Under the pieces are notes generated by a model, which worked only from the letters and a program-made list of their open reading frames with translations, did no database searches and was not told the DNA's origin. A program made the translations under genes and the position numbers. Positions 19,325 through 35,688 of a stretch of 64,000 nt of DNA are shown piece by piece. Source of the DNA: Microbacterium sp. Gd 4-13 (GTDB lineage: Bacteria > Actinomycetota > Actinomycetes > Actinomycetales > Microbacteriaceae); contig NZ_QEIJ01000004.1 in NCBI RefSeq assembly GCF_003095395.1, positions 248,001 to 312,000 of the forward strand, given 5' to 3'. Each line of letters starts with the position of its first letter. Positions within the stretch are counted from its first letter, which is position 1.

Positions 19325-19876
19325 GTGAGCGACGCGCTCCCACGACGAACGACCCATGCCGGCCGTATCGTCTTCGACACGTTCCGGTCGGCGTACGACC
19401 CGATGCTCAACTCGTGGCTCGTCTTCCGCGCGCAGATCCTTCAGGAGGTGCTGACCGTGCCGGCCGATGTGGCGGCGGCCGACACCGACGAGCGCGAACG
19501 CGCTCGGGCTGGCCGCTTCGGAGTGTGGCGCATCCTCGCCACCAACAACCGCGAACTCGGCCGAGGCTCGGGACTGTTCCCGACGCCGTCCGAGGCACTG
19601 GCCACCGTCGAGGCGCTCCAGCGCGAGGCCATGTCGCTCGTGGCCTCCGTCGTTCGGGGCTCGACGCCCATGACGCACGGCTGGGTGCTGCGTCGCGACG
19701 GCGAGGCCGTCATGACGTCGTCGCGGTGGTACGAGTCGGCGTCCGAGGCTGCCGCCGCAGCGCGAGCCGCGCGCGCGGTGCTGGCGACGGCGGCGATCGC
19801 GACGGGCGTCAACATCGGCACTCAGTCCGGGCGGCGCCTGCGGCGTGCCATCGCTCCCGTGAACCAGATTGTCTGA
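19325..19876 (+). CDS. Hypothetical protein with possible tandem YegP/DUF1508-like repeats
   Basis: 183 residues from GTG 19325; another GTG at 19247 would add 26 low-complexity residues, and neither has a good ribosome site. After an N-terminal helix, two segments resemble each other: FGVWRILATNNRELGRGSGLF followed by a Ser/Glu/Ala helix, and HGWVLRRDGEAVMTSSRWY followed by a similar helix (SASEAAAAARAARAV). Both have the W-x-L...G...S pattern of YegP-like DUF1508 units, small beta-beta-alpha domains of unknown role. The resemblance is my reading and is not certain. Its stop overlaps the region of the kinase start, suggesting co-transcription. Confidence 0.55.
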   Translation: MSDALPRRTTHAGRIVFDTFRSAYDPMLNSWLVFRAQILQEVLTVPADVAAADTDERERARAGRFGVWRILATNNRELGRGSGLFPTPSEALATVEALQREAMSLVASVVRGSTPMTHGWVLRRDGEAVMTSSRWYESASEAAAAARAARAVLATAAIATGVNIGTQSGRRLRRAIAPVNQIV

Positions 19877-19892
19877 CGCGGGCGACGGCGCG

Positions 19893-21536
19893 ATGACCGA
19901 CGGGCTCGTCGCGGGGCGCTTCCGAGTGCTCGGACTCCTCGGCTCGGGGGCGACGGCATCGGTGTACGACGCGCTCGATACCCGCGACGGTGGTCGCGTC
20001 GCGGTGAAGGTGCTGCATCCGCACCTCGCCGCGCGGCCAGAGATGCGGTCGGCATTCTTGAGGGAGGCCGAGCGGGTGGCGGCGCTGTCGCATCCGGCTC
20101 TGTGCGGCGTCGTCGGATCGGGGTCGGACGACCTCGGCGGAGAGGGCGAGACCTGGACGGCGTGGCAGCTCGCGCCCGGACTCACCCTCGGCGAGCAGGT
20201 GCGCGAGCGGGGGACGCTCTCGGCGCGCACCGCCGCGGACGTGGGGGCCAGGGTGCTCGACGGGCTGGCGGTGCTGCACGCCGCGGGGCTCGTGCACCGT
20301 GACATCTCGCCGTCGAACATCGTGGTCGACGTGGACTCGGCGGGGCATCTGCGCGACGCGCGCATCATCGATTTCGGGCTCGTGGATGAAGCGGGGACGA
20401 CCACGCGCGGGGGCGACGTGCTGCGCAGCGAGGACGGCGACGGCGTCGTCGGCAACCTGCAGTACGCGGCCCCCGAGCTCTTGCGCGGTGAGGGCGTGGG
20501 GCCTTCCGCCGATTTGTACCAGCTCGCCGGGGTGCTCTACTTCGCCCTCGTCGGTTCGCCGCCCTTCGCGCGGGACTCGGCGGAGGCGACCATCCGCGCG
20601 CATCAGAGCGCGGCCCCGCCGACGGTTTCGGTGAGCGTCGGCGGGGTGCCGGTCGCGTTCGACCGTGTGATCGTCCGGGCCATGCTGAAAGACCCCGCCA
20701 CGCGATTCGGTACGGCCGGCGAGATGCGCGACGCGCTCTCGTCAGCGGTGGCGTCACGCAGCAACACGGTCGCGGTGCCAGTGGACCGTACGACGCGCAC
20801 GCGGGTGTTCTCTCCCGCCGTGAGCCCGGCCATCGACGCCGCCCAGCACGCATCCGTCGAGCCCGAGGGGCGGGGAGGATCGCCCTGGCTGTGGGGCCTC
20901 GGGCTCGTCGCGGTCGGGCTGGTGGTCGCCGTCGTCGTCGCGCTGTCGTCGGGGAGCCAGCCCACCACCGCGCGGGAGACCCCGGCGCCCGTCGTGTCGA
21001 GTCCGGCCGTGACGGCATCGCCTCCTGCTCCGACGCCGGTCGTGCAGACGCCGCCCCCGCCCGTGATGGCAATGGTCCCCTCGCTCGAGGGGATGGATGC
21101 GGATGCGGCGACTCGCGCGCTCTCGGCGGCCGGCCTCGCGGTGGGCGAGATCATGAGCGTCGACTCGGTGAGACCGATCGGCACGGTTCTGGCGAGCCAG
21201 CCCGCCGTCGGCACGACCCTGGCGGCCGGAGGGTTCGTGGCGCTGACCGTTGCCAGCGGGGCGAACGCCGTTCCCGACGTGGTCGGTGCTCCCGAGCAGT
21301 CGGCGATGGACGCCGTCGTGGCCGCGGGCTTCGTGCCCGTCGTCACCCGGCAGAGCAGCAGCGCACCCACCGGCACGGTGACCGCCGTGCAGCCTGCCGG
21401 TTCCGCGAGTCTTCCTCTGGGGACGACCGTCTCGCTCGTGGTGGCCGCGCCCCTCCCGGCTCCGTCGCCGACCACCCCTCCGGTCACGCCGACGCCGACG
21501 CCGACGCGCACGCCGACACCGGGGGCAACGCCATGA
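19893..21536 (+). CDS. PknB-like serine/threonine protein kinase with two PASTA domains
   Basis: 547 residues from ATG 19893; a TTG eight codons earlier is possible. Kinase domain residues 9-275: glycine loop LLGSGATASVY, Lys39 in VAVKVL, catalytic loop HRDISPSN with Asp137, DFG in IIDFGLVDE and APE in AAPELL. The loop has Ser where most PknB kinases have Lys (HRDLKPxN). A Pro/Ser-rich juxtamembrane segment, one helix ([18 protein letters not shown]) and two extracellular PASTA domains (MVPSLEGMDADAATRALSAA and AVPDVVGAPEQSAMDAVVAA) follow, ending in a Thr-Pro tail. PASTA kinases sense cell-wall fragments and tune wall synthesis. The pst genes begin 170 bp downstream. Confidence 0.92.
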   Translation: MTDGLVAGRFRVLGLLGSGATASVYDALDTRDGGRVAVKVLHPHLAARPEMRSAFLREAERVAALSHPALCGVVGSGSDDLGGEGETWTAWQLAPGLTLGEQVRERGTLSARTAADVGARVLDGLAVLHAAGLVHRDISPSNIVVDVDSAGHLRDARIIDFGLVDEAGTTTRGGDVLRSEDGDGVVGNLQYAAPELLRGEGVGPSADLYQLAGVLYFALVGSPPFARDSAEATIRAHQSAAPPTVSVSVGGVPVAFDRVIVRAMLKDPATRFGTAGEMRDALSSAVASRSNTVAVPVDRTTRTRVFSPAVSPAIDAAQHASVEPEGRGGSPWLWGLGLVAVGLVVAVVVALSSGSQPTTARETPAPVVSSPAVTASPPAPTPVVQTPPPPVMAMVPSLEGMDADAATRALSAAGLAVGEIMSVDSVRPIGTVLASQPAVGTTLAAGGFVALTVASGANAVPDVVGAPEQSAMDAVVAAGFVPVVTRQSSSAPTGTVTAVQPAGSASLPLGTTVSLVVAAPLPAPSPTTPPVTPTPTPTRTPTPGATP

Positions 21537-21599: not shown

Positions 21600-21708
21600 G
21601 CGCCCACGATGGCGAGGATCCGGCCGGAACCCGCCGCCGGTCGTTCCGCTCAGGAAGCCCCATGAGACGCGCTTTCCGCCTGCCCTCGCGCACGTCCGAG
21701 GTATGCGC

Positions 21709-22776
21709 ATGACGAATGTCGGCTCCGACGACCTCACGCAGCTGCTGACGCCGACCGAGCCCGAACAGTCGTCCGTGGCGGATGCTGCGGAGCAGAAGCC
21801 GAAGGTCGCGGCGCGCTCGCTCAAGGCCGCGCCCTCGGTCTCGGACGCCATCTTCCGCTCGGGGTCGTTCCTCGCCGGCGGGATCACCGTGGCGATCATG
21901 CTCGCGGTCGGACTGTTCCTGACCCTTCGCAGCGGAGAGGCGCTGGGAGTCGCGGGGCTGTCGTTCTTCTGGACCCAGGAGTGGTCGCCCGAGACCGGTC
22001 AGTTCGGCATCGTCGCCGTGCTGTTCGGCACCGTCTCGATCGCGCTGGTCGCGATGGCGTTCTCCGTGCCGCTCGCCCTCGGAACGGCGCTGTTGATCTC
22101 GGAGATCGCCCCGCCTCGCCTGAAGTCGATGCTCATCACCCTGGTCGACCTGATGGCCGCCGTGCCCAGCGTCGTCTACGGCCTCTGGGGGGTCTTCTTC
22201 CTGCAGGAGGCGGTCATCCCGGTCGCCCAGTGGATCTCCACCTACTTCGGATGGATCCCGGTCTTCGCGGTCACCGATCCGGAGGGCGCGCGGCTCACCG
22301 AAGCGGGCGCCTTCACCTCCTCGGCGTTCATCGCGGGAATCGTCGTCGCACTCATGGTGTCTCCGACGCAGACTTCGGTCATGCGCGAGGCCTTCTCGCA
22401 GGCCCCGGTGGGGGAGCGCGAGGGCGCGCTCGCTCTCGGCTCGACGAGATGGGGGATGATCCGCACGGTCGTGCTCCCCTTCGGGCGAGGCGGCGTCATC
22501 GGTGGAACCATGCTGGGTCTCGGACGAGCTCTGGGCGAGACGATCGCCGTCTACATGATCATCTCCCCGATCTTCACGATCAACTGGGAACTGCTCAGCA
22601 AGGGCACCAACTCGATCTCCGCGCTGATCGCCCTCCGCTACGGCGAGGCGAGTCAGTTCGGGCTCTCGGCGCTGATGGCCGCCGGTCTCACCCTCTTCGT
22701 CATCACCCTCATCATCAACTTCACCGCTTCGTCGATCGTCGCCCGATCGCGTTCCGGTGCGGAGAGCGACGGATGA
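21709..22776 (+). CDS. pstC: Phosphate ABC transporter permease PstC
   Basis: 355 residues from ATG 21709, chosen over ATG 21703 because GAGG at 21698-21701 is then seven bases away. A cytoplasmic N-tail of about 50 residues precedes six helices. The BPD_transp_1 coupling region is EGALALGSTRWGMIRTVVLP, and the family-typical GRALGETIAVYMII follows. It forms the phosphate channel with PstA. The N-tail contains DLTQLLTP, related to short motifs in the PstA and PstB tails. The stop overlaps the pstA start (ATGA). Confidence 0.96.
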   Translation: MTNVGSDDLTQLLTPTEPEQSSVADAAEQKPKVAARSLKAAPSVSDAIFRSGSFLAGGITVAIMLAVGLFLTLRSGEALGVAGLSFFWTQEWSPETGQFGIVAVLFGTVSIALVAMAFSVPLALGTALLISEIAPPRLKSMLITLVDLMAAVPSVVYGLWGVFFLQEAVIPVAQWISTYFGWIPVFAVTDPEGARLTEAGAFTSSAFIAGIVVALMVSPTQTSVMREAFSQAPVGEREGALALGSTRWGMIRTVVLPFGRGGVIGGTMLGLGRALGETIAVYMIISPIFTINWELLSKGTNSISALIALRYGEASQFGLSALMAAGLTLFVITLIINFTASSIVARSRSGAESDG

Positions 22777-24266
22777 CCGTGACCATCGACACCACCATCA
22801 CCACCGTCATCGATCCGCTCGAAGCCCGCTGGGACACGGCTGACGAGGGTCTCGCGACCGAGCGCGTCGCTTCGGCCCCGCTGTCGTCGTCGGGCGGAAC
22901 GTTCCGCCCCGATCCGGGCGACGCTCCGATCGGACCCCGCCGCCAGATGCGCGGGACCCCCGCCGAGGAGCGATTCAACCTGGTGGGTGCGCTCGCCGCA
23001 GCACTGGCGGTGGCGACCCTGCTGTTCGGCTGGCTGACACCGATGACGGGCGCGGTCGGCTGGGCAGTGGTCGCCTATCTGTCCTTCATCGCGATCTACG
23101 CGCTGCTGATCATCCTGCGGGCCGACCGGCTCGAGGTCGCCGACCGGGTGATGACCGCCCTGCTGTACAGCGCCGGGGCGATCCTCCTCGCCGCGCTCGT
23201 CTTCGTCGTCGTCTTCACGGTCGTCCGGGGCATGCCGGCGATGTTCTCGACGTCATGGCCGTTCATTCGTTTCAATTTCTTCTTCGAGACGATGCAGTAT
23301 GCGGGTCCGCTCGACCCGCTCGAGGTCGGCGGGATCGCGCACGCGATCGTCGGAACCCTGATCCAGATCTCGATCGCACTGCTCATCTCCGTGCCCCTCG
23401 GCATCGCCACCGCCGTGTTCATGAATGAGATCGGCGGGCGCTTCGCCCGTTTCGTCCGGACGATCTCCGACGCGATGACGGCGCTGCCCTCGATCGTGGC
23501 CGGCCTGTTCATCTACGCCGCCGTCATCACGCTCGTCACCCAGGAGCGCTCCGGCTTCGCCGCATCCCTCGCGATCACGGTCATGATGCTCCCGATCATC
23601 ATCCGCGCCTCCGACGTCGTCCTCCGGCTCGTGCCCGGCAACCTGCGCGAGGCGTCGTACGCGCTGGGCGCCTCGCGGTGGCGCACGGTCTGGACCGTCG
23701 TGCTCCCCACGTCGCGTTCCGGCCTCGCGACCGCGGTGATCCTGGGCACGGCGCGCGGGGTGGGGGAGACGTCCCCCGTGCTCCTCACGTCGGGCGTGAC
23801 CGCGGTCATGAACTGGAACCCGTTCTCGGGCGCGATGATCTCGCTTCCCCTCCAGGTCTTCGACATGGTGAAGTCGCCCGAGCCGACGATGATCGCCCGG
23901 GGATTCGGGGCTGCCGCGACCCTCATCGCCCTCGTCCTCGTGCTCTTCGTGATCGCTCGCATCGTCGGCGGGAAGGGACCGGGGCAGCTGAGCCCGCGCC
24001 GACGCCGGGCGCGCGCAGCTGCGTCGCTCGCCGACCTCGAGCGGATCGAGAGCGGGGCCGCCGTGAGGTCGTCGATCGAGGCCGCCGTGTTCGCCCCGGT
24101 CGCCACGCGCGCACCGGTCTCGGCCGAACCGCAGCCGCTGGAGTCGTCCGACGAGGACGACGCGCCCGACACGCCCTCCGATCCGACGATGACCTCGCAC
24201 GACATCACCGACGTGATTCGACCTGATTCTTCCGATACCCCCGACACCCCGAAGGAGCGCTCGTGA
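22773..24266 (+). CDS. pstA: Phosphate ABC transporter permease PstA with extended tails
   Basis: 497 residues, against about 300 for typical PstA. The core has six helices, the coupling loop ASYALGASRWRTVWTVVLP and the PstA signature GTARGVGETSPVLLTSG. It is enlarged by a cytoplasmic N-tail of about 70 residues, two additional N-terminal helices (LVGALAAALAVATLLFGWL and WAVVAYLSFIAIYALLII), and an acidic C-tail of about 95 residues rich in Asp, Ser and Pro. N-tail ITTVIDP and C-tail ITDVIRP echo the PstB N-terminus. It is translationally coupled to both neighbours (ATGA with pstC, GTGA with pstS). Confidence 0.95.
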   Translation: MTVTIDTTITTVIDPLEARWDTADEGLATERVASAPLSSSGGTFRPDPGDAPIGPRRQMRGTPAEERFNLVGALAAALAVATLLFGWLTPMTGAVGWAVVAYLSFIAIYALLIILRADRLEVADRVMTALLYSAGAILLAALVFVVVFTVVRGMPAMFSTSWPFIRFNFFFETMQYAGPLDPLEVGGIAHAIVGTLIQISIALLISVPLGIATAVFMNEIGGRFARFVRTISDAMTALPSIVAGLFIYAAVITLVTQERSGFAASLAITVMMLPIIIRASDVVLRLVPGNLREASYALGASRWRTVWTVVLPTSRSGLATAVILGTARGVGETSPVLLTSGVTAVMNWNPFSGAMISLPLQVFDMVKSPEPTMIARGFGAAATLIALVLVLFVIARIVGGKGPGQLSPRRRRARAAASLADLERIESGAAVRSSIEAAVFAPVATRAPVSAEPQPLESSDEDDAPDTPSDPTMTSHDITDVIRPDSSDTPDTPKERS

Positions 24267-25891
24267 TCCGCCGACGTTTCCGCCCTCTCGCGACGGCGCT
24301 CGTCGCGCTGCTCGTCTCGACCGCCGCCGTCACCGGCGGCACTGCATCGGCGCAGGCCGCGGCGGAGCCGTATGCGAACATCTCCGGTTCGGGATCGACA
24401 TGGTCGCAGAACGCGCTGGACCAGTGGCGCCGCAACGTGCAGACGACCCGAGCGATGACGGTGGATTACCGCGGACTCGGCTCGACGGCGGGGCGCAGCG
24501 ATTTCATCAACCGCACTGTCGATTTCGCGATCAGTGAGATTCCGTTCCAACTCCAGCCGACGGAGGTGGGTGCGCAGCCCGAACGCCCGGAGCCGGGGGG
24601 ATACGCCTACATGCCGATCGTGGCAGGTGGTACCGCGTTCATGTACAACCTGAAGATCGGTGGCAAGCGCGTCACCAACCTCCGCCTGTCGGGCGCGACC
24701 GTCTCGAAGATCTTCGCCGGTCAGATCACGAACTGGAACCACCCCGAGATCCAGGCCGACAACCCCGGCCTCGCGATGCCCGACCGTGCGATCCAACGCG
24801 TCGCACGATCCGACGGCTCCGGATCGACGGCGCAGTTCACCATGTGGATGTCCAAGCAGCACGGTGACATCTGGACATCGGGCATGACGTCGCAGTTCCC
24901 CGGCAACGTGGGAGCGACCCTGCAATCGGGTTCGCTGGGCGTTGCGGGATACGTCAGCCAGAACTACGGCGAAGGAGCGATCACCTACGTCGAGTACTCG
25001 TACGCCGTGAAATCGGGCTTCCCCGTCGCCAAGGTGTTGAACGCGGCAGGTTATTACATCGAGCCCACCGCGTCCTCGGTCGCCGTGGCCATGCTGAAGG
25101 CGCAGATCAACAACAACGCCAGCTCCCCCGACTACCTCACCCAGATTCTCGACGGCGTCTACGGCAACACCGACCCGCGCACCTATCCGCTGTCGAGCTA
25201 CTCCTACATGATCGTCCCGACGACCGTTCGCGGAACCTTCGACCAGGCCAAGGGGCGCACCCTCGGGGAGTTCGCCCGGTACGTGTTGTGCGAAGGTCAG
25301 CAGCAGGCCGAGCAACTCGGCTATTCGCCGCTGCCGATGAACCTCGTCATGGCCGGCGCCGAGCAGATCAAGCGGATCCCCGGCGCGGAGGGCTCGGGCG
25401 TCGATATCAACAATTGCAAGAACCCCACCTTCGAGCCCGGGGATTCCCCCGAGAGCAACCGGCTCGCCCAGACGGCGAAACAACCCGCGGAGTGCGACCG
25501 GCAGGGTCCCGACCAGTGCACGACCGGAACGGCCGGAGCCTCCGACACCGACACCGACGTCACCGGGTCCGGTGGCGGCGGCTCCGCAGCCGGGGCGGAA
25601 GGAACGGGAGCGGCCGCCGCAGCATCGGGGGGTGCGGCCGCCGCCGACCCCGCTGCGGTGGACGCTGGCGCGGTCGGTGGAGACGCCGTGTACGACGCCA
25701 ATGGAGCACTGGTCTCCGGGTCGGTGGCGGGCGGTCGCACGGCGGTGTCGTCGCCGTTCACGATCCCCGATCCTGTCTGGGGCGGCCCGCAGCTGCTGAT
25801 GCTCGCGGCCGCGATCCTTCTGCTCGGGTCGATCGTCCTGCCTCCGGTGCTCTCTCGCAGGCTCCGCGGGGGCGGGCGCAAGACGGGCTGA
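24263..25891 (+). CDS. pstS: Membrane-anchored phosphate-binding protein PstS
   Basis: 542 residues from GTG 24263, overlapping the pstA stop. A signal peptide (LVALLVSTAAVTGGTASAQA) lacks any lipobox cysteine. The PBP-like domain shows PstS phosphate-loop motifs: SGSGSTWSQNALDQW at about residue 36, a VAGGTAFMYNLKIGG segment, KIFAGQITNWNHPEI, SDGSGSTAQFTMW, and near the end LGYSPLPMNLV. A disordered Gly/Ala/Ser linker of about 100 residues follows, then a C-terminal helix (LLMLAAAILLLGSIVLPPVL) and a basic tail. It is therefore held by a C-terminal membrane anchor rather than lipid, which is unusual for PstS. It delivers phosphate to PstC/PstA. Confidence 0.92.
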   Translation: MIRRRFRPLATALVALLVSTAAVTGGTASAQAAAEPYANISGSGSTWSQNALDQWRRNVQTTRAMTVDYRGLGSTAGRSDFINRTVDFAISEIPFQLQPTEVGAQPERPEPGGYAYMPIVAGGTAFMYNLKIGGKRVTNLRLSGATVSKIFAGQITNWNHPEIQADNPGLAMPDRAIQRVARSDGSGSTAQFTMWMSKQHGDIWTSGMTSQFPGNVGATLQSGSLGVAGYVSQNYGEGAITYVEYSYAVKSGFPVAKVLNAAGYYIEPTASSVAVAMLKAQINNNASSPDYLTQILDGVYGNTDPRTYPLSSYSYMIVPTTVRGTFDQAKGRTLGEFARYVLCEGQQQAEQLGYSPLPMNLVMAGAEQIKRIPGAEGSGVDINNCKNPTFEPGDSPESNRLAQTAKQPAECDRQGPDQCTTGTAGASDTDTDVTGSGGGGSAAGAEGTGAAAAASGGAAAADPAAVDAGAVGGDAVYDANGALVSGSVAGGRTAVSSPFTIPDPVWGGPQLLMLAAAILLLGSIVLPPVLSRRLRGGGRKTG

Positions 25892-26010: not shown

Positions 26011-26052
26011 GTTGACGGATCGTTCATCTAAACGTCATGACCCGCCCATACT
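26011..26052 (+). promoter_or_regulatory. PHO box and promoter of the surface-protein block
   Basis: Three phased 11-bp units lie in tandem: GTTGACGGATC (26011-26021), GTTCATCTAAA (26022-26032) and CGTCATGACCC (26033-26043). They match the direct-repeat PHO box bound by actinobacterial PhoP. A -10-like CATACT follows at 26047-26052. About 50 bp of leader precede the TTG start at 26102. This predicts phosphate-starvation induction independent of the pstC promoter. Confidence 0.6.
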
Positions 26053-26101: not shown

Positions 26102-28696
26102 TTGCGTACGGCTGCACCCGAACGTCGCGCGCGGCGAGGCCTCGTCTCCGGCCTCACCGGCGTGCTCATCGGCGGTCTCGTCTTCACGGCGATGACCGCC
26201 GGCGGTCTGGCGACCCCGCCTGCATCGGCCGCGGCCGACTCCGAGGCAGATCTGCGCCCGGTTACGATCTCGGCGACGGAGTACTACGCGAACAGTCCGT
26301 ACGGTGGCTCGGCCGCCGAGGGCGCCCCCCTCCCCGACCTCGAGATCACGGTGTCGCAAACCGCCGGTCTGACCGCGCAAGGCATCGAGATCACGTGGAA
26401 GGGAGGGAAGCAGTCCAGCCCGCCGAGCAACCAGGTCGGCGGCGAGAACTTCCTCCAGTTCGCGCAGTGCTGGGGCGACGACCCGCTGAACCCGGGCACG
26501 CCCGACCGCACGACGTGCCAGTACGGCGGAACGGCGACACCCGGCACGGGGCGCGTCGGAAGCCGACCGTTCGACCAGGAGATCCCCGCGCAGGACCGCT
26601 ACTACACCGTCGCCGGAACCGACCCGAACAACCCGGCCGAGACCGCGATCCCGTTCGTCTCCTCCACGTCGCGCGACGGCGTGAACGACAGGGTGGAGCG
26701 CATCGCCAACGGTGCGTACGTCGAGCCGGATCGCCTCAAGCGCGCCGACCTCAATCAGAACCAGTTCATCTCGCAGTACACCACCAACGAGGTCTCGTGG
26801 GCGGGGTCCGGCGCCAACGGCGAAGGCAGCGCGAAGTTCGAGGTGCAGACGGCCGTCCAGTCGCGCGGCCTCGGGTGCGGGCGCAGCACGCAGGCGGCCG
26901 ACGGAACGGCGGCGGCGCAGCCGTGCTGGCTCGTGATCATCCCCCGAGGGACGGCCGACAACGGCGAGAACGCGATCACCCAGCCGGGCGTCTTCTGGGA
27001 CAGCTGGCAGCACCACATCGCCGTGAAGATGAATTTCCGGCCGATCAGCGGCGCGTGCGAGGACGGTGCGAACGAGCGGCAGCTCGTCGGGAGTGAGTTG
27101 ATGGCGGGAGCCGTGACGTCCTGGCAGCCGAGTCTCTGCGCGGGCGGCGGCGACATCTACAACATGATCACCGGCACCGAGTCCGACGCCGTGACGGCGG
27201 CGAACCTCGCCACGGTCTCGGCGCCGCTCGCGCTCACCTCTCGTCCGTACTCGGGCGAGGACGCCGATGACCTGATCTACGCTCCGGTCGCGCTCTCGGC
27301 CGTCACGGTCGCCTTCTCGATCGACCGGTTCCCCGACGGGTCGAAGGCGTCGGAGGAGGAGCAGGCGCGCGCGGGCCTGCCGTTCACCTCGATGAAGCTG
27401 ACCCCGCGCCTCATCGCCAAGCTGCTGACGTACTCGTACGTCGACGCGCTTCCGTCCGAGACCTCGAAGGATCACCTCGCGGGCAACCCGCGCAATCTGC
27501 TGTTCGACGAGGAGTTCCTCGAGATCAACGACCCCGAGTGGAGGAAGCAGGCCATCGCGGGGGTCGGCGTGTCCGACATGCTCCTCCCGCAGGGGCGTTC
27601 GGACGTGGCACTCGCTCTGTGGAACTACGTGCTCGCGGATGCTGATGCCCGCGCCTTCCTGAACGGCGAGCCCGACGCGTGGGGCACGAAAGTCAACAAG
27701 TACAGCTCCACAAACGCCGACGTGAACCCGAGCGGTGCGCTGATTCTGCCCGTCGACAACTTCCCGAAGGCCGATCCGACCAAGCGCGAGGCGATCGCCG
27801 GCGGTGCGGGCGAGCTCAACCTCATCACCTGGCGGCCCTACACGAACGATCTCGATACGTCGGGCTACCTCGCTCTGCGCGGCGACGCGCAGCTCGTGGA
27901 TCGGTGGGATGCGCTCGCCGCGCCGCCCAGGTACCTGCGGGTTCCGCGCAGCCTCCAGGGGAGCCAATCGGTCATCGCCCTGACCGACAGTGCAGCCTCG
28001 GAGAAGTATCAGATCGTCACGGCCGCGCTCGAGAATCCGGCCGGCGAGTTCGTCACCGCCTCCACCGGGGCCATGACGGCCGCCGCGGGGGCGATGACCT
28101 CAACAACCGCCCAGACCCAGGTGCGCGGGTTCAATGTGTCCTCCGACGCGGCACGCTCGGCGACGGGTGCCTACCCGCTGACGATGCCCGTGTACGCGGC
28201 GGCGAACCCCTACATGAGCGACGCCGACGCCCGGTCGAGCTACGCCGACTTCATCCGCTACGCCGTCGGGTACGGCCAGGTGCCCGGAGTGCAGGTGGGG
28301 CAGCTGCCGGTCGGGTACGCGCCCATCCCCGAATCATGGCGATCCCAGTCGATCATCGCGGCGAACGTGATCCAGGGCGGCCTGACGCGGTCCACCGCTC
28401 CTGTGTCGAGCGGCAGCAACGGCAGTGGCGGTGCCGGCCCCGCGACCGGGAGTATCCCGAGGTCGGCCAACAGCGCCGCATCCGCCGTTTCGGGCGCCGC
28501 GTCGTCGTCGGCCTCCGCGACCACCGACACCGGACCGACCGCGTCGGGCGCGGTGGCAGGTGCGCTCGCGGGGGCGCAGACCCCCGCCGACCCGAGCAGC
28601 GGCGGTCTCGGAACCGTGCTGCCGGTGAGCCTCCTCGCCGGGCTCATGAGCGCTGCCGCCGTTCTGATCATTCCCCGACTTCCGCGTCGTACCTGA
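26102..28696 (+). CDS. Large PstS-fold surface protein with C-terminal membrane anchor
   Basis: 864 residues from TTG 26102, which has AGGAG five bases upstream; the in-frame codons before it run through the PHO box. A long signal peptide (LVSGLTGVLIGGLVFTAMTAGG) ends near ASAAAD. The body reads as an expanded PstS-type fold: IYAPVALSAVTVAFSID and VGYAPIPESWRSQS correspond to PstS strands, and GAYPLTMPVYAAANPYM to the typical late PstS segment. About 400 residues of unfamiliar sequence with several cysteines come before. A Ser/Ala/Gly stalk, helix VLPVSLLAGLMSAAAVLII and a basic tail finish it. It may capture phosphate or a phosphorylated ligand at the surface. The ligand is not established. 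Confidence 0.75.
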   Translation: MRTAAPERRARRGLVSGLTGVLIGGLVFTAMTAGGLATPPASAAADSEADLRPVTISATEYYANSPYGGSAAEGAPLPDLEITVSQTAGLTAQGIEITWKGGKQSSPPSNQVGGENFLQFAQCWGDDPLNPGTPDRTTCQYGGTATPGTGRVGSRPFDQEIPAQDRYYTVAGTDPNNPAETAIPFVSSTSRDGVNDRVERIANGAYVEPDRLKRADLNQNQFISQYTTNEVSWAGSGANGEGSAKFEVQTAVQSRGLGCGRSTQAADGTAAAQPCWLVIIPRGTADNGENAITQPGVFWDSWQHHIAVKMNFRPISGACEDGANERQLVGSELMAGAVTSWQPSLCAGGGDIYNMITGTESDAVTAANLATVSAPLALTSRPYSGEDADDLIYAPVALSAVTVAFSIDRFPDGSKASEEEQARAGLPFTSMKLTPRLIAKLLTYSYVDALPSETSKDHLAGNPRNLLFDEEFLEINDPEWRKQAIAGVGVSDMLLPQGRSDVALALWNYVLADADARAFLNGEPDAWGTKVNKYSSTNADVNPSGALILPVDNFPKADPTKREAIAGGAGELNLITWRPYTNDLDTSGYLALRGDAQLVDRWDALAAPPRYLRVPRSLQGSQSVIALTDSAASEKYQIVTAALENPAGEFVTASTGAMTAAAGAMTSTTAQTQVRGFNVSSDAARSATGAYPLTMPVYAAANPYMSDADARSSYADFIRYAVGYGQVPGVQVGQLPVGYAPIPESWRSQSIIAANVIQGGLTRSTAPVSSGSNGSGGAGPATGSIPRSANSAASAVSGAASSSASATTDTGPTASGAVAGALAGAQTPADPSSGGLGTVLPVSLLAGLMSAAAVLIIPRLPRRT

Positions 28697-28764: not shown

Positions 28765-29886
28765 GTGAAGCTCAAGAAGATCGCCGCGCTCGGCGCGGCT
28801 GTCGGCCTCGTCCTTTCGGGCATCGGCCTTGCCTCCACCGCCTCGGCCGAGCCGGTGTCGAACAGCTACGTGGCTGTCGGCTCCGACACTCTGCAGGACG
28901 CGATGAACGCGCTGACCAACGGCACCAACGCCTCCGGCTCCTACGTCCGCATCCTCGCGGACGGACAGACCATCGGAAACTTCGACGCGTTCGGCTCGCC
29001 GGCCATCCAGACGAAGTCGGGCGGCCCGTTCTTCGCACGTCCCAACGGTTCGAGTGCCGGTCGCGACGCTCTGCGTCGTTCGATCGACGGCGCGAACTGG
29101 TCGGCGTCGGGCAACACCACGCCCGCTCGTCCGATCACGGGTCAGGTCGACATCGCGCGTTCCTCGAGCGGTGCGGGCACGAACGCGAACGCCGAGGGTC
29201 GCCTCCTCTACGTGCCGTTCGGCCGCGACGCGGTGGCCTACGCCTACAAGGGCGGCAACGCCGAGTGGGCGAACCTCACCGCTACCCAGCTCAAGGGCAT
29301 CTACGAGGGCACGATCACGTCGGTCGGCGGCGCGACCATCAAGCCGCGCCTGCCCCAGACGTCGTCGGGCACCCGCTCGTTCTTCCTCGGTGCGATCGGC
29401 GTGACCAACCCGTCCGGTGTGGCCGACGCGTCGAACACGACGGTCCCCGAGAACGACGCGACCATCCTCGGCGACGGCGAGATCATCCCGTTCTCGGCCG
29501 CCAACTGGGTCGCTCAGTCCAACAACGTCGCGAGCGTCAACACCATCGCCGCCTCGACGGGCGTCTCGCTGGGCTCGCCCGTCAGCGGCGCGGTTCCCTT
29601 CACCGGCACGGCCCCGTCGCTCGTGCCGAACGCCGCCTTCTACTCGAACACGACCTTCGGTCGCGACACCTACCTGATCGTCCAGCGCGCCCGCGTGCAG
29701 TCGAGCTTCACCTACACCGGCGCTCCCTCCTACGACCCGGTTCTCGCGAACCTCGTCAACTCGGCCTCCATCACGAGCCTGACCTCCTTCAGCCTGTCGC
29801 CGCTGGCGGCAGGTTCGGTCAAGCGCAAGTTCGGCTTCCTCGCCCCCAGCTCGACCACCCCTGTCGCCGCGTACGCGCAGGGCTGA
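28765..29886 (+). CDS. Small secreted PstS-fold protein
   Basis: 373 residues from GTG 28765, with AGG six bases upstream. Signal peptide AALGAAVGLVLSGIGLASTASA, no lipobox and no membrane anchor, so it should be released or held by partners. PstS-family features: YVAVGSDTLQDAMNAL (the GSDT phosphate-loop equivalent), QVDIARSSSGAG, VPFGRDAVAYAYKGG, LKGIYEGTITSVGG and TSSGTRSFFLGAIG. It sits between the large PstS-like protein and a WxL-like protein, in the same direction and probably the same transcript. A role in binding phosphate or phosphate esters outside the membrane is inference. Confidence 0.8.
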   Translation: MKLKKIAALGAAVGLVLSGIGLASTASAEPVSNSYVAVGSDTLQDAMNALTNGTNASGSYVRILADGQTIGNFDAFGSPAIQTKSGGPFFARPNGSSAGRDALRRSIDGANWSASGNTTPARPITGQVDIARSSSGAGTNANAEGRLLYVPFGRDAVAYAYKGGNAEWANLTATQLKGIYEGTITSVGGATIKPRLPQTSSGTRSFFLGAIGVTNPSGVADASNTTVPENDATILGDGEIIPFSAANWVAQSNNVASVNTIAASTGVSLGSPVSGAVPFTGTAPSLVPNAAFYSNTTFGRDTYLIVQRARVQSSFTYTGAPSYDPVLANLVNSASITSLTSFSLSPLAAGSVKRKFGFLAPSSTTPVAAYAQG

Positions 29887-29918: not shown

Positions 29919-30980
29919 ATGTTCAAGCTCACCACCGTCAAGGCCGCCCTCGTCGGCGCCGTCGCGGTCGCGCTGATCGGAGGCGGAGTCACCTCCGCGT
30001 CCGCCGCGATCACCCCCTCCGGTTCCACCTCCGCCTACTACGTCTTCGACGCCGCCACCGAGGCGCTCGTCGCCGACGGCGCGCCGATCGCGTTCGACCA
30101 GCTCGTCGCGGGTTACCCCAGCGACTCCGGCTTCTCGGACTACAACCAGATGTTCACCGGTCCGGCTGCGGCCACCGAGGTGTACGTCTTCGTCTCGCCG
30201 CGCGGCGACGAGCGCGACACCTCCAAGTGGCTCGGTCGCCAGATGAACGGCTTCAACGACCCCGCCGCGAAGACGGTCCTCACGCCGGCGATGCTGCTCA
30301 ACAACCTGGCGGGCTCGAACTACGCGTCGGTCAAGGCGAACGGCGGCACCTTCTCGGCTGGTATCGCCTTCACCTCGAGCTACGGCGTGACCGTCGAGGA
30401 CGCCGCGTTCGTGCACATCACGGTGCAGCCCGGCGGCAGCTGGAGCTACGTCGCGACCAAGGACGACGCGACCGGCCCGGTCGACCCGACCGACCCCAGC
30501 ACGACGGGCGAGATCGATCTCGAGGCGACCACCATCGCCCCGACCGACGGCAGCCTGTCGCTCGTCGTCCCCGCCGACGCGAAGGCGACGTTCGGCGAGG
30601 CCACCCTCGTCAACGGCAAGTCGACCTCGACCGCGTCGCTCCCCGAGGTCACGGTGAACGACGAGCGCGTCGTCTCGCGCAAGGGATGGACGCTCACGCA
30701 GTCCGTCGCCGACTTCACCAACGGCACGGAGACCATCGGAGCGACCAACCTCGGCGTCGCGCCCAAGGTGAACGCCACCGGCACCACCTCGACCGGTGTC
30801 TCGCCTGCTGCGGCTCAGGTCGCCGGCGCGGCGACCTACCCGGCCCCGTTCGCTCAGGCGGCCGCGGGCGCGGGCGTCGGTGTCACGAAGCTCGGCGCCG
30901 ACCTCACGCTGGTCGCGCCGTCGGACGCCCCGGCGGGCACCTACACCTCGAAGATGACGCTCACGCTCGTCTCGAAGTAA
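29919..30980 (+). CDS. WxL-like secreted cell-surface protein
   Basis: 353 residues from ATG 29919; the nearest ribosome-site-like AGGA is 11 bases upstream, so initiation may be weak or coupled. Signal peptide ALVGAVAVALIGGGVTSASA. The N-terminal domain (YYVFDAATEALVADGAPIAF, EVYVFVSPRGDERD) is unfamiliar. The C-terminal region has the WxL-domain pattern: GWTLTQSVADFTNGTETIGA and NLGVAPKV, then GADLTLVAPSDAPAGTYTSK leading to a final beta strand. WxL domains bind peptidoglycan non-covalently and pair with DUF916 proteins, one of which is encoded immediately downstream. A strong hairpin follows the stop codon. Confidence 0.7.
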   Translation: MFKLTTVKAALVGAVAVALIGGGVTSASAAITPSGSTSAYYVFDAATEALVADGAPIAFDQLVAGYPSDSGFSDYNQMFTGPAAATEVYVFVSPRGDERDTSKWLGRQMNGFNDPAAKTVLTPAMLLNNLAGSNYASVKANGGTFSAGIAFTSSYGVTVEDAAFVHITVQPGGSWSYVATKDDATGPVDPTDPSTTGEIDLEATTIAPTDGSLSLVVPADAKATFGEATLVNGKSTSTASLPEVTVNDERVVSRKGWTLTQSVADFTNGTETIGATNLGVAPKVNATGTTSTGVSPAAAQVAGAATYPAPFAQAAAGAGVGVTKLGADLTLVAPSDAPAGTYTSKMTLTLVSK

Positions 30981-31043: not shown

Positions 31044-31065
31044 GTTCAACCCTCGTTCATCCGTG
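31044..31065 (+). promoter_or_regulatory. PHO box upstream of the DUF916 block
   Basis: Two adjacent 11-bp direct repeats, GTTCAACCCTC (31044-31054) and GTTCATCCGTG (31055-31065), fit the actinobacterial PhoP site closely. They lie 38 bp before the GTG of the DUF916 gene and just beyond the preceding terminator. They predict a second phosphate-controlled promoter that also drives pstB. Confidence 0.65.
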
Positions 31066-31103: not shown

Positions 31104-32231
31104 GTGCTCAAGATCACCTTCTCCGCGCGCCCGAACGCGCGGGGCCCTCGCTCCCTCGCGATCGCTCTGATCGCCGGGATCGCGCTGTCGCTCGCCGCTC
31201 TCGCCCCCGCCGCCACGGCCGCCGACGAGGCTGCCCCCGAAGACACGATCGGCATCTCGGCGAAGCCGCAGGCCGCTGATGAGAACTCCGCCGGGCGCAC
31301 GCGCTTCAGCTACCAGATGAGCCCCGGCCAGAACCTCGATGACGTCTACGTCGTCACCAACTCCGGCACGACCGCCCAGACCTTCACCGTCTTCGCCACC
31401 GATGCCTTCAACACCGCCGAGGGCGGCTATGGTCTCCTCGACACGGGTGTTCAGCCCGCCGATGCCGGCGCCTGGGTGCGGTTCGGCGGCGAGACCTCTG
31501 TCACGGCCGCCCTTCAGCCCGGCGAGTCCCGTGAGATCCCGTTCTCGCTGGTCGTCCCCGCCGACGCGTCACCGGGAGACCACGCTGCCGGCATGGTCGT
31601 GTCCGCGCTGGCCGATGACGGGCAGGTGCTCGTCGACCGTCGCGTGGGCACGCGACTCTACGTCCGCGTTCCGGGAGACCTCCAGCCGAATCTCACCGTC
31701 GACGGCATGAGCGCGTCGTACACCCCCAGCATCAACCCTCTCGCCGGCGAAGCGACCGTCACCTTCACCGTTCGCAACGCCGGGAACGTCGCGCTCTCCG
31801 GTGATCTCAAGACCGAGATCAAGGGTCTGTTCGGTATCGGCCTCGCCCCTGCGCTCGAGACCGAGGTCGACGAGATGCTCCCGGGGAGCACGCGGACGGT
31901 CACGACGACCGTGTCGGGCGTCGGACAGTGGGTCTTCCTCAACCCCGTGGTCACCCTCTACCCGTCGGTCGACGCCGAGGCGCTCAACCCCGGACCGCTG
32001 ACCAGCGTCACTCGCGACACGATCCTGTTCGCGGTGCCCTGGGTGCTGCTCGGGCTGATCGTGCTCGGCCTCGGAATCTGGGGCTGGATCGTCTTCAGCC
32101 GCCGCCGCGACGCGCGTCGGGCGCGGGCGTGGATCGAGTACACCGAGGCCGAAGCGCGCCGCAAGGCGGAATACGAGCGCGAGCCCGCCGTGGTCGCCGC
32201 TGCCAGCCCGACACGATCGGAATCCTCGTGA
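31104..32231 (+). CDS. DUF916 / WxL-interacting membrane protein
   Basis: 375 residues from GTG 31104 with GGAGA six bases upstream. Signal peptide IALIAGIALSLAALAPAATA. A WxLIP peptidoglycan-binding-type domain covers residues 40-190: SAGRTRFSYQMSPGQNLDDV, YVVTNSGTTAQTFTVFATDA and FSLVVPADASPGDHAAGMVV. A second Ig-like host-binding domain follows (SYTPSINPLAGEATVTFTVR, GVGQWVFLNP). A single helix (FAVPWVLLGLIVLGLGIWGW) and an Arg/Glu-rich cytoplasmic tail complete it. In Firmicutes these proteins tether WxL proteins to the wall. Here the WxL-like gene is directly upstream. The stop overlaps the next start (GTGA). Confidence 0.88.
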   Translation: MLKITFSARPNARGPRSLAIALIAGIALSLAALAPAATAADEAAPEDTIGISAKPQAADENSAGRTRFSYQMSPGQNLDDVYVVTNSGTTAQTFTVFATDAFNTAEGGYGLLDTGVQPADAGAWVRFGGETSVTAALQPGESREIPFSLVVPADASPGDHAAGMVVSALADDGQVLVDRRVGTRLYVRVPGDLQPNLTVDGMSASYTPSINPLAGEATVTFTVRNAGNVALSGDLKTEIKGLFGIGLAPALETEVDEMLPGSTRTVTTTVSGVGQWVFLNPVVTLYPSVDAEALNPGPLTSVTRDTILFAVPWVLLGLIVLGLGIWGWIVFSRRRDARRARAWIEYTEAEARRKAEYEREPAVVAAASPTRSESS

Positions 32232-33046
32232 GGCACCGTGCGGCTCGCGCCGTTCGCCTGGGCCGCGTGGTCGCGATCCTCGCAGCATCCGTCATCGCCC
32301 TCGTGGCTCTTCCCCTGGGCTCGGCCGTCGCGTCCTCGCCGAGCACGGTGACCTGCTCGACATCGTCCAGCCCGGCACCGAGCGAGGGCGGGGTCGACAT
32401 GTCGGCCACGATCGTCGGTCCTGCCACATCACCGTGCGACGCGAAGCCGAGCGGCACCGTGTCGGGCGGTTCCGGACCCGCCCCCGTCGGCACGTCGACG
32501 CGCCAGAACGGACCCGGCACCGGGGCGGGCGTCGATCCGGCGGGCGTCGTCACCGACGGCGAACTGCCGTCCCTCACGCTCGACGAGGTCGACCTGGGCG
32601 GGATGCTGAGCATCGGCGGGCTCTCGACGTCGTACCGCCCGTCGTTCAACCCCTTCGGCGGAGATCTCGAGCTGTCGTTCACGGTGCGCAACACCTCGCA
32701 GTCGACGGTCGACGCGACGGCGGACTTCTGGATGGAGGGTCCGTTCGGGCTCCGCATCTCGTCGGCCGACGATGTCGCCGTCGCTGCCCTCAAGCCGGGG
32801 GAGACCCGCACCGTGAGCGCCTCGCTCCCGGGCGTCGGCCAGTGGACGGTCCTGACCGCCCACACCACCTTCACGCCGCCCGAGATGGTCGACGACGTGC
32901 AACTGACTCCCCTCACGCGGGACGCCACCGTGTTCGCCCTCCCGTGGTTCGTCGTCCTCCTCGTGGCGCTCGGGCTCGCTGCGTGGGTCGTCGTCCTGGT
33001 GCTGCGCCGTCGTGAGGGCGCCGAGCCGATCGGGGCGTGGGCATGA
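32228..33046 (+). CDS. DUF916-related membrane protein lacking the first domain
   Basis: 272 residues from GTG 32228. After the signal peptide comes a Ser/Gly/Pro-rich region with two cysteines (VTCSTSSSP and SPCDAKP), then a domain clearly paralogous to the second half of the DUF916 protein. Examples are SYRPSFNPFGGDLELSFTVR against SYTPSINPLAGEATVTFTVR, SLPGVGQWTVL against TVSGVGQWVFL, and LTRDATVFALPWFVVLLV against VTRDTILFAVPWVLLGLI. The peptidoglycan-binding first domain is missing. It ends in one helix and a short basic tail. A four-base overlap joins it to the sortase-like gene. A partner or assembly role in the same complex is inferred. Confidence 0.75.
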   Translation: MRHRAARAVRLGRVVAILAASVIALVALPLGSAVASSPSTVTCSTSSSPAPSEGGVDMSATIVGPATSPCDAKPSGTVSGGSGPAPVGTSTRQNGPGTGAGVDPAGVVTDGELPSLTLDEVDLGGMLSIGGLSTSYRPSFNPFGGDLELSFTVRNTSQSTVDATADFWMEGPFGLRISSADDVAVAALKPGETRTVSASLPGVGQWTVLTAHTTFTPPEMVDDVQLTPLTRDATVFALPWFVVLLVALGLAAWVVVLVLRRREGAEPIGAWA

Positions 33047-34053
33047 CGATCGCCGAGTCGCCGGTCGAGCCGGAGGTCGCCGAGCCGGATGACGCCGCGC
33101 CCCCCGCGAAGAAGGGACGCATCCGGCCCCCCGCCCCGCCGAAGCCGCCCCGCACCCCACGGCCGCCTCGCCGACCGCCCGTCCCCCCGCGGGTGCGCCC
33201 GCCCCTCACTCGAGGCGAGGCCCTCGCCCGAAGCATCGCGGCCACTCTCGCGCTGATGCTCCTCATGTTCGTGCTGAACCTCACGGTGTTCAGCCACCTC
33301 CAGCACCACGTCTCGCAGCAGCGGTTGTCGGACGAGTTCCGTCTGCAGTTGCAAGCAGGCACCGCCCCGGTCAGCGAGGGCACGTTCGACGACGTGCTGC
33401 TCGCGGACGGCGCGCCGGTCGCGATCATGGAGATCCCGAGCATCGGGTTCTACGACGTCGTGGTGGAGGGCTCGTCCTCCGCCGAGACGGCCCTGGGCGT
33501 CGCGCATCGCCGCGACACCGTGCTGCCGGGTCAGGCGGGAGTGAGCTACCTCATGGCCCGCTCGGCCGCGTTCGGCGGTCCGTTCTCGGTGATCCCATCG
33601 CTCGATCCCGGCGAGACGATCCTCATCCGCACCGGGCAGGGGCTGCAGACGTTCGAGGTGATCGGAGTGAGATACGCCGGCGACCCGACACCGCCGAACC
33701 TCGCCCCGGGTGAGAGCAGGCTGATTCTGCAGACCTCGCGCGGCGCCCCGTACGTCCCGTCCGGGATCGTCTACGTCGACGCCCGCCTCGTCTCGGACGC
33801 GCAGCCGGCCGGTGTGCGTATGACCACGCCGGGACTGCTCCCGCCCGAAGACAGGGCGATGGCCACCGACACGACGACGGTGTGGGCGCTCGTGTTCGCC
33901 CTGCAGTTCCTCATCGCCGTCGAGATCGCCGCGGTGTGGTCGTTCCGACGTTTCGGTTCTCAGAAGACGTGGATCGTCTTCGTTCCCGTGCTCGCGCTGG
34001 CGGGATTCTTCATCGCGGACCAGGTCACGCGCCTGCTGCCCAATCTTCTCTGA
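33043..34053 (+). CDS. Sortase-fold membrane protein without catalytic residues (pseudosortase)
   Basis: 336 residues from ATG 33043, overlapping the preceding stop (ATGA). A Pro-rich cytoplasmic N-tail ([20 protein letters not shown]) precedes a helix ([19 protein letters not shown]), a sortase-like beta-barrel domain of about residues 105-250, and two C-terminal helices. The sortase outline is recognisable: [37 protein letters not shown] and [14 protein letters not shown]. The usual His (AGHR) corresponds to Arg173 in [12 protein letters not shown]. The nucleophile Cys of TLxTC is Ser232 in LILQTS, and no arginine precedes VYVDARL. It is therefore probably a non-catalytic binding or scaffolding protein of the DUF916/WxL complex. 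Confidence 0.72.
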
Positions 34054-34076: not shown

Positions 34077-35018
<942 letters not shown>

Positions 35019-35024
35019 ACGCGA

Positions 35025-35603
35025 TCAGATCGGCGCCAGGGTCGCCGCGCCGAACGAGACGGCGAAGCGCGCGCACCAGATCGACACGCTCTGGAACCCC
35101 GCGAGATCGGCATCGGCGGGGATCTCATACACCTGGTCGCCCAGATTGCCCTTCAACGCTCCCAGCTCGAGATAGCGCCCGTCGTCGAACACGTGCCAGC
35201 CGTCGACGCCCTCGATGACCGGCTGATCCGAGAGCCAGACCCGCAGATCGGGGCCGTCGCTGGTGTCGAGACCCGCGATCGCCAAGACGCGGGATCCGTC
35301 GGGTTGCTGCACCAGGCGCACCGAACCGCTGGTCTCGTGCTCGTGGGTGATGAACGAGCCCCGAGCGAGGTCGGTGTACACGGGGTCTGCGGAAGCGGCC
35401 GGCGCCGGAGTCTCCGTCGGCGCAGATGCTGCCGGCTCGGCCGTCGCGGTGGACGTCGATGTCGTCTCTCCGGGCGGAAGCGCGTCGTCGACCGTCGTGT
35501 TCGTGAACAGCCGCCACGGCTGGAAGAGCGCAGCGGCCACGACCACGACGGCCACGAGCACCACTCCGGTCGAGGACCAGAGGATCGCTCGCTTACGGGT
35601 CAT
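35025..35603 (-). CDS. Membrane-anchored DM13-domain protein
   Basis: 192 residues from ATG 35601-35603, with GGAGA five bases upstream. An N-terminal signal anchor ([21 protein letters not shown]), a Thr/Ala/Pro-rich linker and a C-terminal DM13 domain follow: [49 protein letters not shown] and [19 protein letters not shown]13 domains carry a conserved cysteine and are proposed to take part in extracellular electron transfer or redox. The single Cys (IWCARF) fits. It is convergent with pstB, only six bases away, and has no obvious functional link to phosphate. Confidence 0.85.
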
Positions 35604-35688
35604 GACCGTCTCCTTCGCTCGCGCCCAGACTAGGCCGCGACGAGGCGGGCGTCTTGTGCGTGCAGAAAACGTCACCGAATCGAAAGAG

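Follow-up and report, generated by a model that had tools for sequence, protein, structure and literature searches.

A dead class E-type sortase lineage linked to phosphate-uptake genes in actinobacteria

Sortases are treated as enzymes, and a match to a sortase domain is easily taken for a transpeptidase. The sortase fold is known, and pseudoenzymes are an established kind of protein. What, then, does a protein do that has the fold of a sortase but not its chemistry, when its gene lies among the genes of a phosphate importer? This question is raised by a gene, here called SRTL, in a stretch of 64,000 nucleotides from Microbacterium sp. Gd 4-13, and this whole stretch is referred to as the window. 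A sequence-only reading of the window had proposed an open reading frame at 33043-34053, which is confirmed with 336 codons, and had assigned to its product a Pro-rich tail and three helices. Such a tail, rich in Pro and Arg, and three membrane helices are present, and the order from the N terminus is the tail, TM1, an extracellular sortase domain, a hairpin made of TM2 and TM3 and a C-terminal LLPNLL.

The sortase fold, also proposed in that reading, is borne out by several searches. The Pfam family PF04203 (Sortase) matches SRTL with 30.8 bits at a cut-off of 26.6, while the NCBIfam model for class E sortases (NF033747) gives 45.1 bits, far below its cut-off of 160. The best PDB sequence matches are the sortases 5go5, 5go6, and 5uus (E about 2e-5), the titles of which name classes E and F, and when 41 SRTL relatives are compared with 29 active class E sortases by hhalign, the probability is 99.65%. 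The AlphaFold models were built from eight sequences and have low confidence: the full-length model (pLDDT 51.4) is usable for strand order alone, and the model of residues 105-257 has a pLDDT of 53.5 and a pTM of 0.55. When this low-confidence domain model is used in Foldseek, the best 50 of 376 PDB matches are all sortases, with 7cg9 at the top (E 2.8e-07) and T. fusca SrtE 9m2n at 2.4e-06. The 50 rows listed by VIA-align are also all sortases, with Z values from 7.8 to 9.4, as exemplified by 3rcc_F (Z 9.4, 3.6 Å, 117 residues) and 9m2n_A (Z 8.9, 4.5 Å, 124 residues). In the full-length model, strand 4 ends at Arg173, strand 7 ends at Ser232, and strand 8 starts at Ile242; in the domain model, strand 4 ends one residue and strand 7 two residues earlier. 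According to the excerpted text of PMC5148588, the His of SrtE1 comes directly after strand 4, the Cys closes strand 7, and the Arg is in strand 8, and the modeled strand order of SRTL agrees with this.

To see how the active site has changed, consider the family of 41 SRTL relatives, defined as sequences with more than 100 bits and with near-copies included (39 at 90% identity). It contains the window itself (L001), a near-copy of the window (L033), and a relative from the window's own genome (L002), while two partial matches at contig ends (L064 and L066, 72.7 and 52.8 bits) and the distant members L110/L117 and L111/L118 are outside it. The 29 active class E sortases are the hits with less than 62 bits in the same searches, and residue identity was not a criterion for their choice. 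Among these, the substrate Tyr and the catalytic His, Cys, and Arg are each kept in 29/29. In the SRTL family, the catalytic residues occur in 0/41 each. The replacements named by the sequence-only reading, Arg173 at the His position, Ser232 at the Cys position, and no Arg before the VYVDARL strand, agree with the alignment, and the losses are conserved in the homologues. At the catalytic Arg position the family has Val in 21 members, Ile in 15, Thr in 2, and Ala, Leu, and Glu in one each. The substrate Tyr, which in the excerpted text of PMC5148588 is Y229 in the beta3/beta4 loop of SrtE1, has been replaced in all 41, by Arg in 33, Gln in 4, Leu in 3, and Ser in 1.

Ser232 is taken as the Cys position because hhalign, the full-length model (where strand 7 ends at this residue), and the distant relative L117, which aligns without gaps at this site (TTSNP versus TTCNP), all favor it; Arg233, a rival equivalent chosen by eye, was dropped for the same reasons. 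A displaced triad was also considered and rejected: no column has a conserved Cys across the 41 relatives, and in the last 230 residues only 8/41 have a Cys, one each. What is seen is a sortase fold with no triad elsewhere in the 41 relatives, so that neither result named in the sequence-only reading as contradicting it has appeared, and the earlier idea of a transpeptidase-derived protein unable to do sortase chemistry is supported by the conserved losses, although L117 keeps the Arg of strand 8.

The genes around SRTL are listed in Table 1. The order in the window is pstC-pstA-pstS1-PstS2-PstS3-WxL-WxLIP1-WxLIP2-SRTL-pstB, all on the forward strand, and the operon thus holds a full Pst set of PstS, PstC, PstA, and PstB, of which three pass their NCBIfam cut-offs. 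PstS2 matches PstS1 in hhalign with 97.55% and has no PDB match better than E 0.5. Profile comparison did not establish PstS3 as a PstS protein, as hhalign to PstS1 gives only 23.6%, and WxLIP2 has no credible Pfam or NCBIfam family.

Table 1. Positions in the window of the SRTL gene, its membrane helices and active-site codons, the neighboring operon genes, and the Pho-box-like repeats
Feature	Position	Strand	Remarks
pstC permease	21703..22776	+	NCBIfam TIGR02138 249.5 bits, cut-off 196.45
pstA permease, long C-terminal tail	22773..24266	+	NCBIfam TIGR00974 211.2 bits, cut-off 193.45
pstS1 phosphate-binding protein, C-terminal TM	24263..25891	+	TIGR00975 217.8 bits, cut-off 205; PDB PstS 8ods E 1.1e-37
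Pho-box-like repeats, 11-nt spacing, upstream of PstS2	26011..26038	+	
PstS2, large PstS-like protein, C-terminal TM	26162..28696 (start 26102 or 26162)	+	TIGR00975 30 bits, below cut-off
PstS3, secreted PstS-like protein, no anchor detected	28765..29886	+	PF12849 36.8 bits, cut-off 27
WxL-domain-like secreted protein	29919..30980	+	PF13731 30.1 bits, cut-off 25
Pho-box-like repeat, 11-nt spacing, upstream of WxLIP1	31044..31060	+	
WxLIP1, DUF916-like, C-terminal TM	31104..32231	+	PF06030 20.4 bits, below cut-off 27.3
WxLIP2, second WxLIP-like membrane protein	32252..33046 (start 32252 or 32267)	+	hhalign to WxLIP1 99.69%
SRTL, dead class E-type sortase, 336 aa	33043..34053	+	ATG 33043, stop 34053
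SRTL TM helix 1, about residues 59-80	33217..33282	+	approximate
Arg156 codon, site of class E substrate-recognition Tyr	33508..33510	+	family Arg 33/41; active Tyr 29/29
Arg173 codon, catalytic His site	33559..33561	+	family Arg 38, Lys 3 (n = 41)
Ser232 codon, catalytic Cys site	33736..33738	+	family Ala 32, Ser 8, Gly 1 (n = 41)
Ile242 codon, catalytic Arg site, strand 8	33766..33768	+	family Arg 0/41
SRTL TM helix 2, about residues 277-299	33871..33939	+	approximate
SRTL TM helix 3, about residues 309-330, then conserved LPN motif	33967..34032	+	approximate
pstB ATPase, N-terminal extension	34077..35018	+	best match TIGR00972 334.9 bits, slightly below cut-off 343.2

The linkage between SRTL and pst genes extends beyond the window. 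When 40 loci are compared, including the window, L033, and L071, with several genomes contributing two places each and with L035 and L055 (short) and L005 (short flank) left out, pst genes are found beside SRTL in 39; the exception, L074, has about 6 kb on one side before the contig ends. In the 35 loci of at least 14 kb, PstS1 is present in all 35, PstA and PstB in 34 each, and PstS2 in 33. PstC is present in 28; of the seven loci without it, six are named loci with an upstream flank of 10 kb, and the seventh (L099) runs into a contig end. PstB follows SRTL directly in only 22/40 loci by a strict count, L073 and L074 have no PstB within about 6 kb downstream, and the gene order differs in distant loci. 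The window genome holds a second SRTL cluster, L071, with 44% identity, and elsewhere another pstA-pstB-like pair (L104, with PstA identified by eye).

If SRTL were a sortase whose substrate is encoded in the same operon, sorting signals would be expected in the neighboring proteins. The LAXTG/LPXTG pattern is absent from the last 60 residues of PstC (0/28), PstA (0/34), PstS2 (0/34), PstS3 (0/21), WxL (0/13), WxLIP1 (0/27), and WxLIP2 (0/16), and it occurs in one of 38 PstS1 proteins (L087; not that of the window). From this near-absence follows that SRTL is not such a sortase. An active partner sortase in the cluster was rejected as well, since phmmer with SRTL (E up to 1e-3) finds no second sortase in the 38 loci L033-L039 and L071-L101, although a very different one could escape such a search.

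How widely the lineage has spread was estimated from genome draws at the level of genus, family, class, and phylum, which overlap and all include the window's own genome. Clear SRTL relatives are found in 6/39 genomes of the genus, 12/60 of the family, 13/79 of the class, with two more cut at contig ends, and 3/80 of the phylum, and the first of these numbers means that most of the genus does without SRTL. Among the named carriers are Microbacterium sp. AG1240, M. testaceum (strain NBRC 12675 holds relative L034), M. hominis, M. rhizomatis, and Lacisediminihabitans changchengi. A tree with 83 rows joins 20 relatives sampled from the 41, the distant L110 and L111, and the own-genome relative (L103) in one clade with support 98/81. 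The row label "active" in this tree is a default: L103 carries it and is the own-genome relative by its coordinates, and L112 carries it and has Asp at the His site. L112 is a sortase-like protein with AGDRVLYG at this site and, in a TCDPP segment, the Cys kept.

The basal member L110 (L117 holds the same gene) shows AGRRTTYGAPF and TTSNPEYLASERLVV: Arg has replaced His, and Ser has replaced Cys, while the Arg of strand 8 and the signature around it are as in an active class E sortase. Since L110/L117 is without His and Cys but has kept this Arg, the sequences suggest that His and Cys were lost first in the SRTL lineage and Arg later. L117 and L118 come from outside the class and are linked to pst genes too; at the substrate Tyr position they have Leu and Val, respectively. 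That the lineage is more widely spread in the class of L117 was not established: 22/24 genomes matched the L117 protein, but 30 of the 56 listed places were retrieved, and among those shown no other has Arg for His; they look active or belong to a group with His replaced by Tyr or Phe. The group of L146, L130, and L141, with Tyr or Phe for His and Thr for Cys, is placed next to the SRTL clade, a position with weak support (64/89), and 19-20 kb of sequence contain no pst match.

The reading of these results to which we give an even chance casts SRTL as a sortase of class E descent that has lost catalysis and acts, embedded in the membrane, as a docking subunit of an enlarged Pst phosphate-capture system. 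Phosphate limitation would lead PhoP to switch on the operon. The membrane-bound PstS1 and PstS2, the secreted PstS3 and, where present, the WxL/WxLIP set would then make up a layer in the wall that gathers phosphate. SRTL would sit beside PstC and PstA in the membrane through its conserved TM2-TM3 hairpin, and its former substrate groove would hold, without cutting, one of the secreted operon proteins, so that phosphate could be handed to the channel. PstS3 would be the natural candidate partner for the groove, because it is secreted and no anchor is detected in the window protein. A common C-terminal motif in the PstS-like proteins was looked for by eye, and none was seen. The most economical account of the data would be that the groove binds but does not cut and that the hairpin keeps the protein in the membrane beside the importer, and the genomic linkage is what points to SRTL as a possible physical part of the importer. 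The scaffold or binding role suggested by the sequence-only reading is plausible.

Two properties of the family bear on this proposal. In the TM2-TM3 region, W310 is conserved in 40, P315 in 41, P333 in 41, and N334 in 40 of the 41 relatives, which is as expected for a membrane contact surface. The dN/dS ratio of the SRTL domain is 0.07 versus L033, 0.17 versus L034, 0.42 versus L036, and 0.27 versus L039 (dS > 1 in the last case), from which follows that SRTL is not a decaying gene.

PhoP control of the operon would be exerted through Pho-box-like repeats. The pattern search used GTTCAY, which we take to be the Pho-box half-site. The Pho box itself is described in the excerpted text of PMC7866108 as two 11-nt repeats. 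With one mismatch allowed, there are 2 hits in the whole window when 0.38 are expected, and 4/100 shuffles reach 2; with two mismatches allowed, there are 9 hits when 6.5 are expected, i.e., no enrichment. In 31 loci, 18/28 hits fall within the 1.4% of bases that lie 30-250 bp upstream of PstC, PstS2, or WxLIP1, and spacings other than 11 nt give 0-2 hits in these regions. When the half-site is permuted 100 times, the mean is 0.4; one permutation reached 19, compared with the real 18, and three are cyclic shifts of the same repeat. These counts are not independent trials, because the upstream regions were picked after an earlier look at the hits and the 31 loci are mutually related.

The docking reading must be weighed against others, and some results speak against it: the gene order varies in distant loci, with PstB directly after SRTL in barely more than half of the 40, most of the genus lacks a relative, the window genome has its other pstA-pstB-like pair, the two-mismatch Pho-box pattern is unenriched in the window, and the AlphaFold models have low confidence. 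A fairly unlikely alternative is that the dead site has become an anion pocket, in which case SRTL would bind phosphate, polyphosphate, or wall phosphate and serve next to the importer as a receptor or sensor. The idea comes from Arg156 and Arg173, which stand where Tyr and His line the groove of class E enzymes; the excerpted text of PMC5148588 places both residues of SrtE1 at the substrate site. In the family, Arg is found at positions 156 (33/41; Tyr in 29/29 of the active enzymes), 157 (37/41; Pro in 18/29), 173 (38/41, with Lys in the other 3; His in 29/29), 210 (40/41; Glu in 20/29), and 226 (39/41; Tyr in 19/29). The pst context of SRTL fits the same idea. The distant L117 and L118 are, however, without Arg at the Tyr position, the models are too poor for side-chain geometry, and the arginines may equally well serve to bind an acidic peptide or just to stabilize the fold. 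A more specific proposal, that the class E groove turned, perhaps once, into an Arg-lined anion site that passes phosphate from a wall-spanning PstS-like set to the PstCA channel, is decidedly improbable; if true, it would make SRTL a Gram-positive counterpart of a periplasmic phosphate trap.

The sequence-only reading had instead drawn a parallel to the assembly proteins that accompany WxL/DUF916 genes. One WxL and two WxLIP-like genes do lie directly upstream of SRTL in the window, and WxL or WxLIP1 is detected in 25/35 of the longer loci, but the parallel is not supported in the form in which it was drawn. Neither is detected in the other 10/35, where diverged copies may escape a detection based on similarity to the window proteins, and in L094 the called genes are pstC-pstA-pstS1-pstS2-pstS3-SRTL-pstB with none intervening, which leaves the Pst importer as the steadier partner (39/40 versus 25/35). 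The WxL clusters are, moreover, defined without a sortase-like gene in the excerpted text of PMC10599100. A general WxL-assembly role was rejected on the 10 loci, and SRTL as an assembly factor for WxL/WxLIP surface proteins is unlikely. That SRTL has remained an enzyme, in which Ser232 is the nucleophile or the triad has shifted, could be argued from the Ser at the Cys position in 8/41 relatives and from L117, which combines Ser with a kept Arg; with the same site occupied by Ala in 32 of the 41 and by Gly in one, with His and Arg in 0/41, and with the single, scattered Cys residues in only 8/41, this is highly improbable. Loss of active-site residues is also what a decaying sortase gene, retained by chance beside pst genes, would show, but this is hardly credible when it is contradicted by the open frames, the dN/dS values, the Arg or Lys for His in 41/41, and a pst linkage that persists outside the class in L117 and L118.

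It remains to place SRTL and its operon among known systems. With the class E sortases (SrtE1 of Streptomyces coelicolor, 5cuw; S. avermitilis SrtE, 5go5; T. fusca SrtE, 9iok) SRTL shares the fold, the strand order, GxGH and LPGxxG-like segments, and an N-terminal TM. It differs from them in the replaced His, Cys, Arg, and substrate Tyr, in its C-terminal TM hairpin, and in its pst neighbors, and no LAXTG/LPXTG tail was found in the window operon. The operon resembles a PstSCAB importer in that PstC, PstA, and PstS1 are above and PstB slightly below the NCBIfam cut-offs and in the Pho-box-like repeats, and it differs by the C-terminal TM of PstS1, two extra PstS-like proteins, the pseudo-sortase, and the optional WxL/WxLIP genes. 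The PstS1 family also has Glu in 22/33 at the position of the key phosphate-loop Asp of PstS, with Asp in 3, Ser in 1, and 7 unmatched by the pattern. Like the WxL/WxLIP surface clusters in the excerpted text of PMC10599100, the operon has a WxL-domain protein and WxLIP-like membrane proteins, but here a single WxL protein, usually with one W-x-L, lies inside a pst operon. The window WxL protein has one W-x-L, and in its family a loose pattern finds one in 9/12, two in two, and none in one.

A limited search of the open-access literature found no description of a conserved lineage of dead sortases associated with a phosphate importer. The SRTL family occurs in several actinobacterial lineages with the fold retained, the chemistry gone, and the tie to phosphate-uptake genes kept, which suggests that an ex-enzyme was taken up as a functional component of machinery that gathers phosphate. 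It is a natural system in which to ask what a sortase groove binds once catalysis is gone. It also points to an apparatus for gathering phosphate at the surface, of which no description was found and which bears on how soil bacteria compete for phosphate.

Some further observations concern proteins around this lineage. A second group of dead sortases is found in another actinobacterial class (L149 9439-10698, +; L150 8876-10258, -; L151 9346-10830, +), with His replaced by Tyr or Phe, Cys by Thr, and Arg kept, no pst match in 19-20 kb, and a long Pro-rich tail that ends in segments of the type NGxDDDGDGLID. Two class E sortases whose active sites are intact and that have no pst cluster in about 20 kb (L152 8492-10657, +; L153 9531-10415, +) have a C-terminal hydrophobic hairpin that ends in LPPDL or LPGNY and resembles the end of SRTL, and these hairpin sortases possibly represent the architecture that preceded the losses. 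The PstS3-like proteins of L094 (7057-9138, -) and L082 (3906-5774, -) are longer and by eye have Ig-type repeat segments at the end. Upstream of the pst operon in the window there is a PASTA-type Ser/Thr kinase (19869-21536, +), and the second cluster, L071, has a kinase at its flank too. A general linkage of kinases to SRTL loci is not claimed, with matches in 10/40 loci, some of them weak, and flanks that are often short. The N-termini of PstA and PstB have TTVIDP-like motifs, which are possible kinase targets. Just after pstB, finally, lies a convergent gene (35025-35675, -) for a DM13-domain protein with an N-terminal TM.
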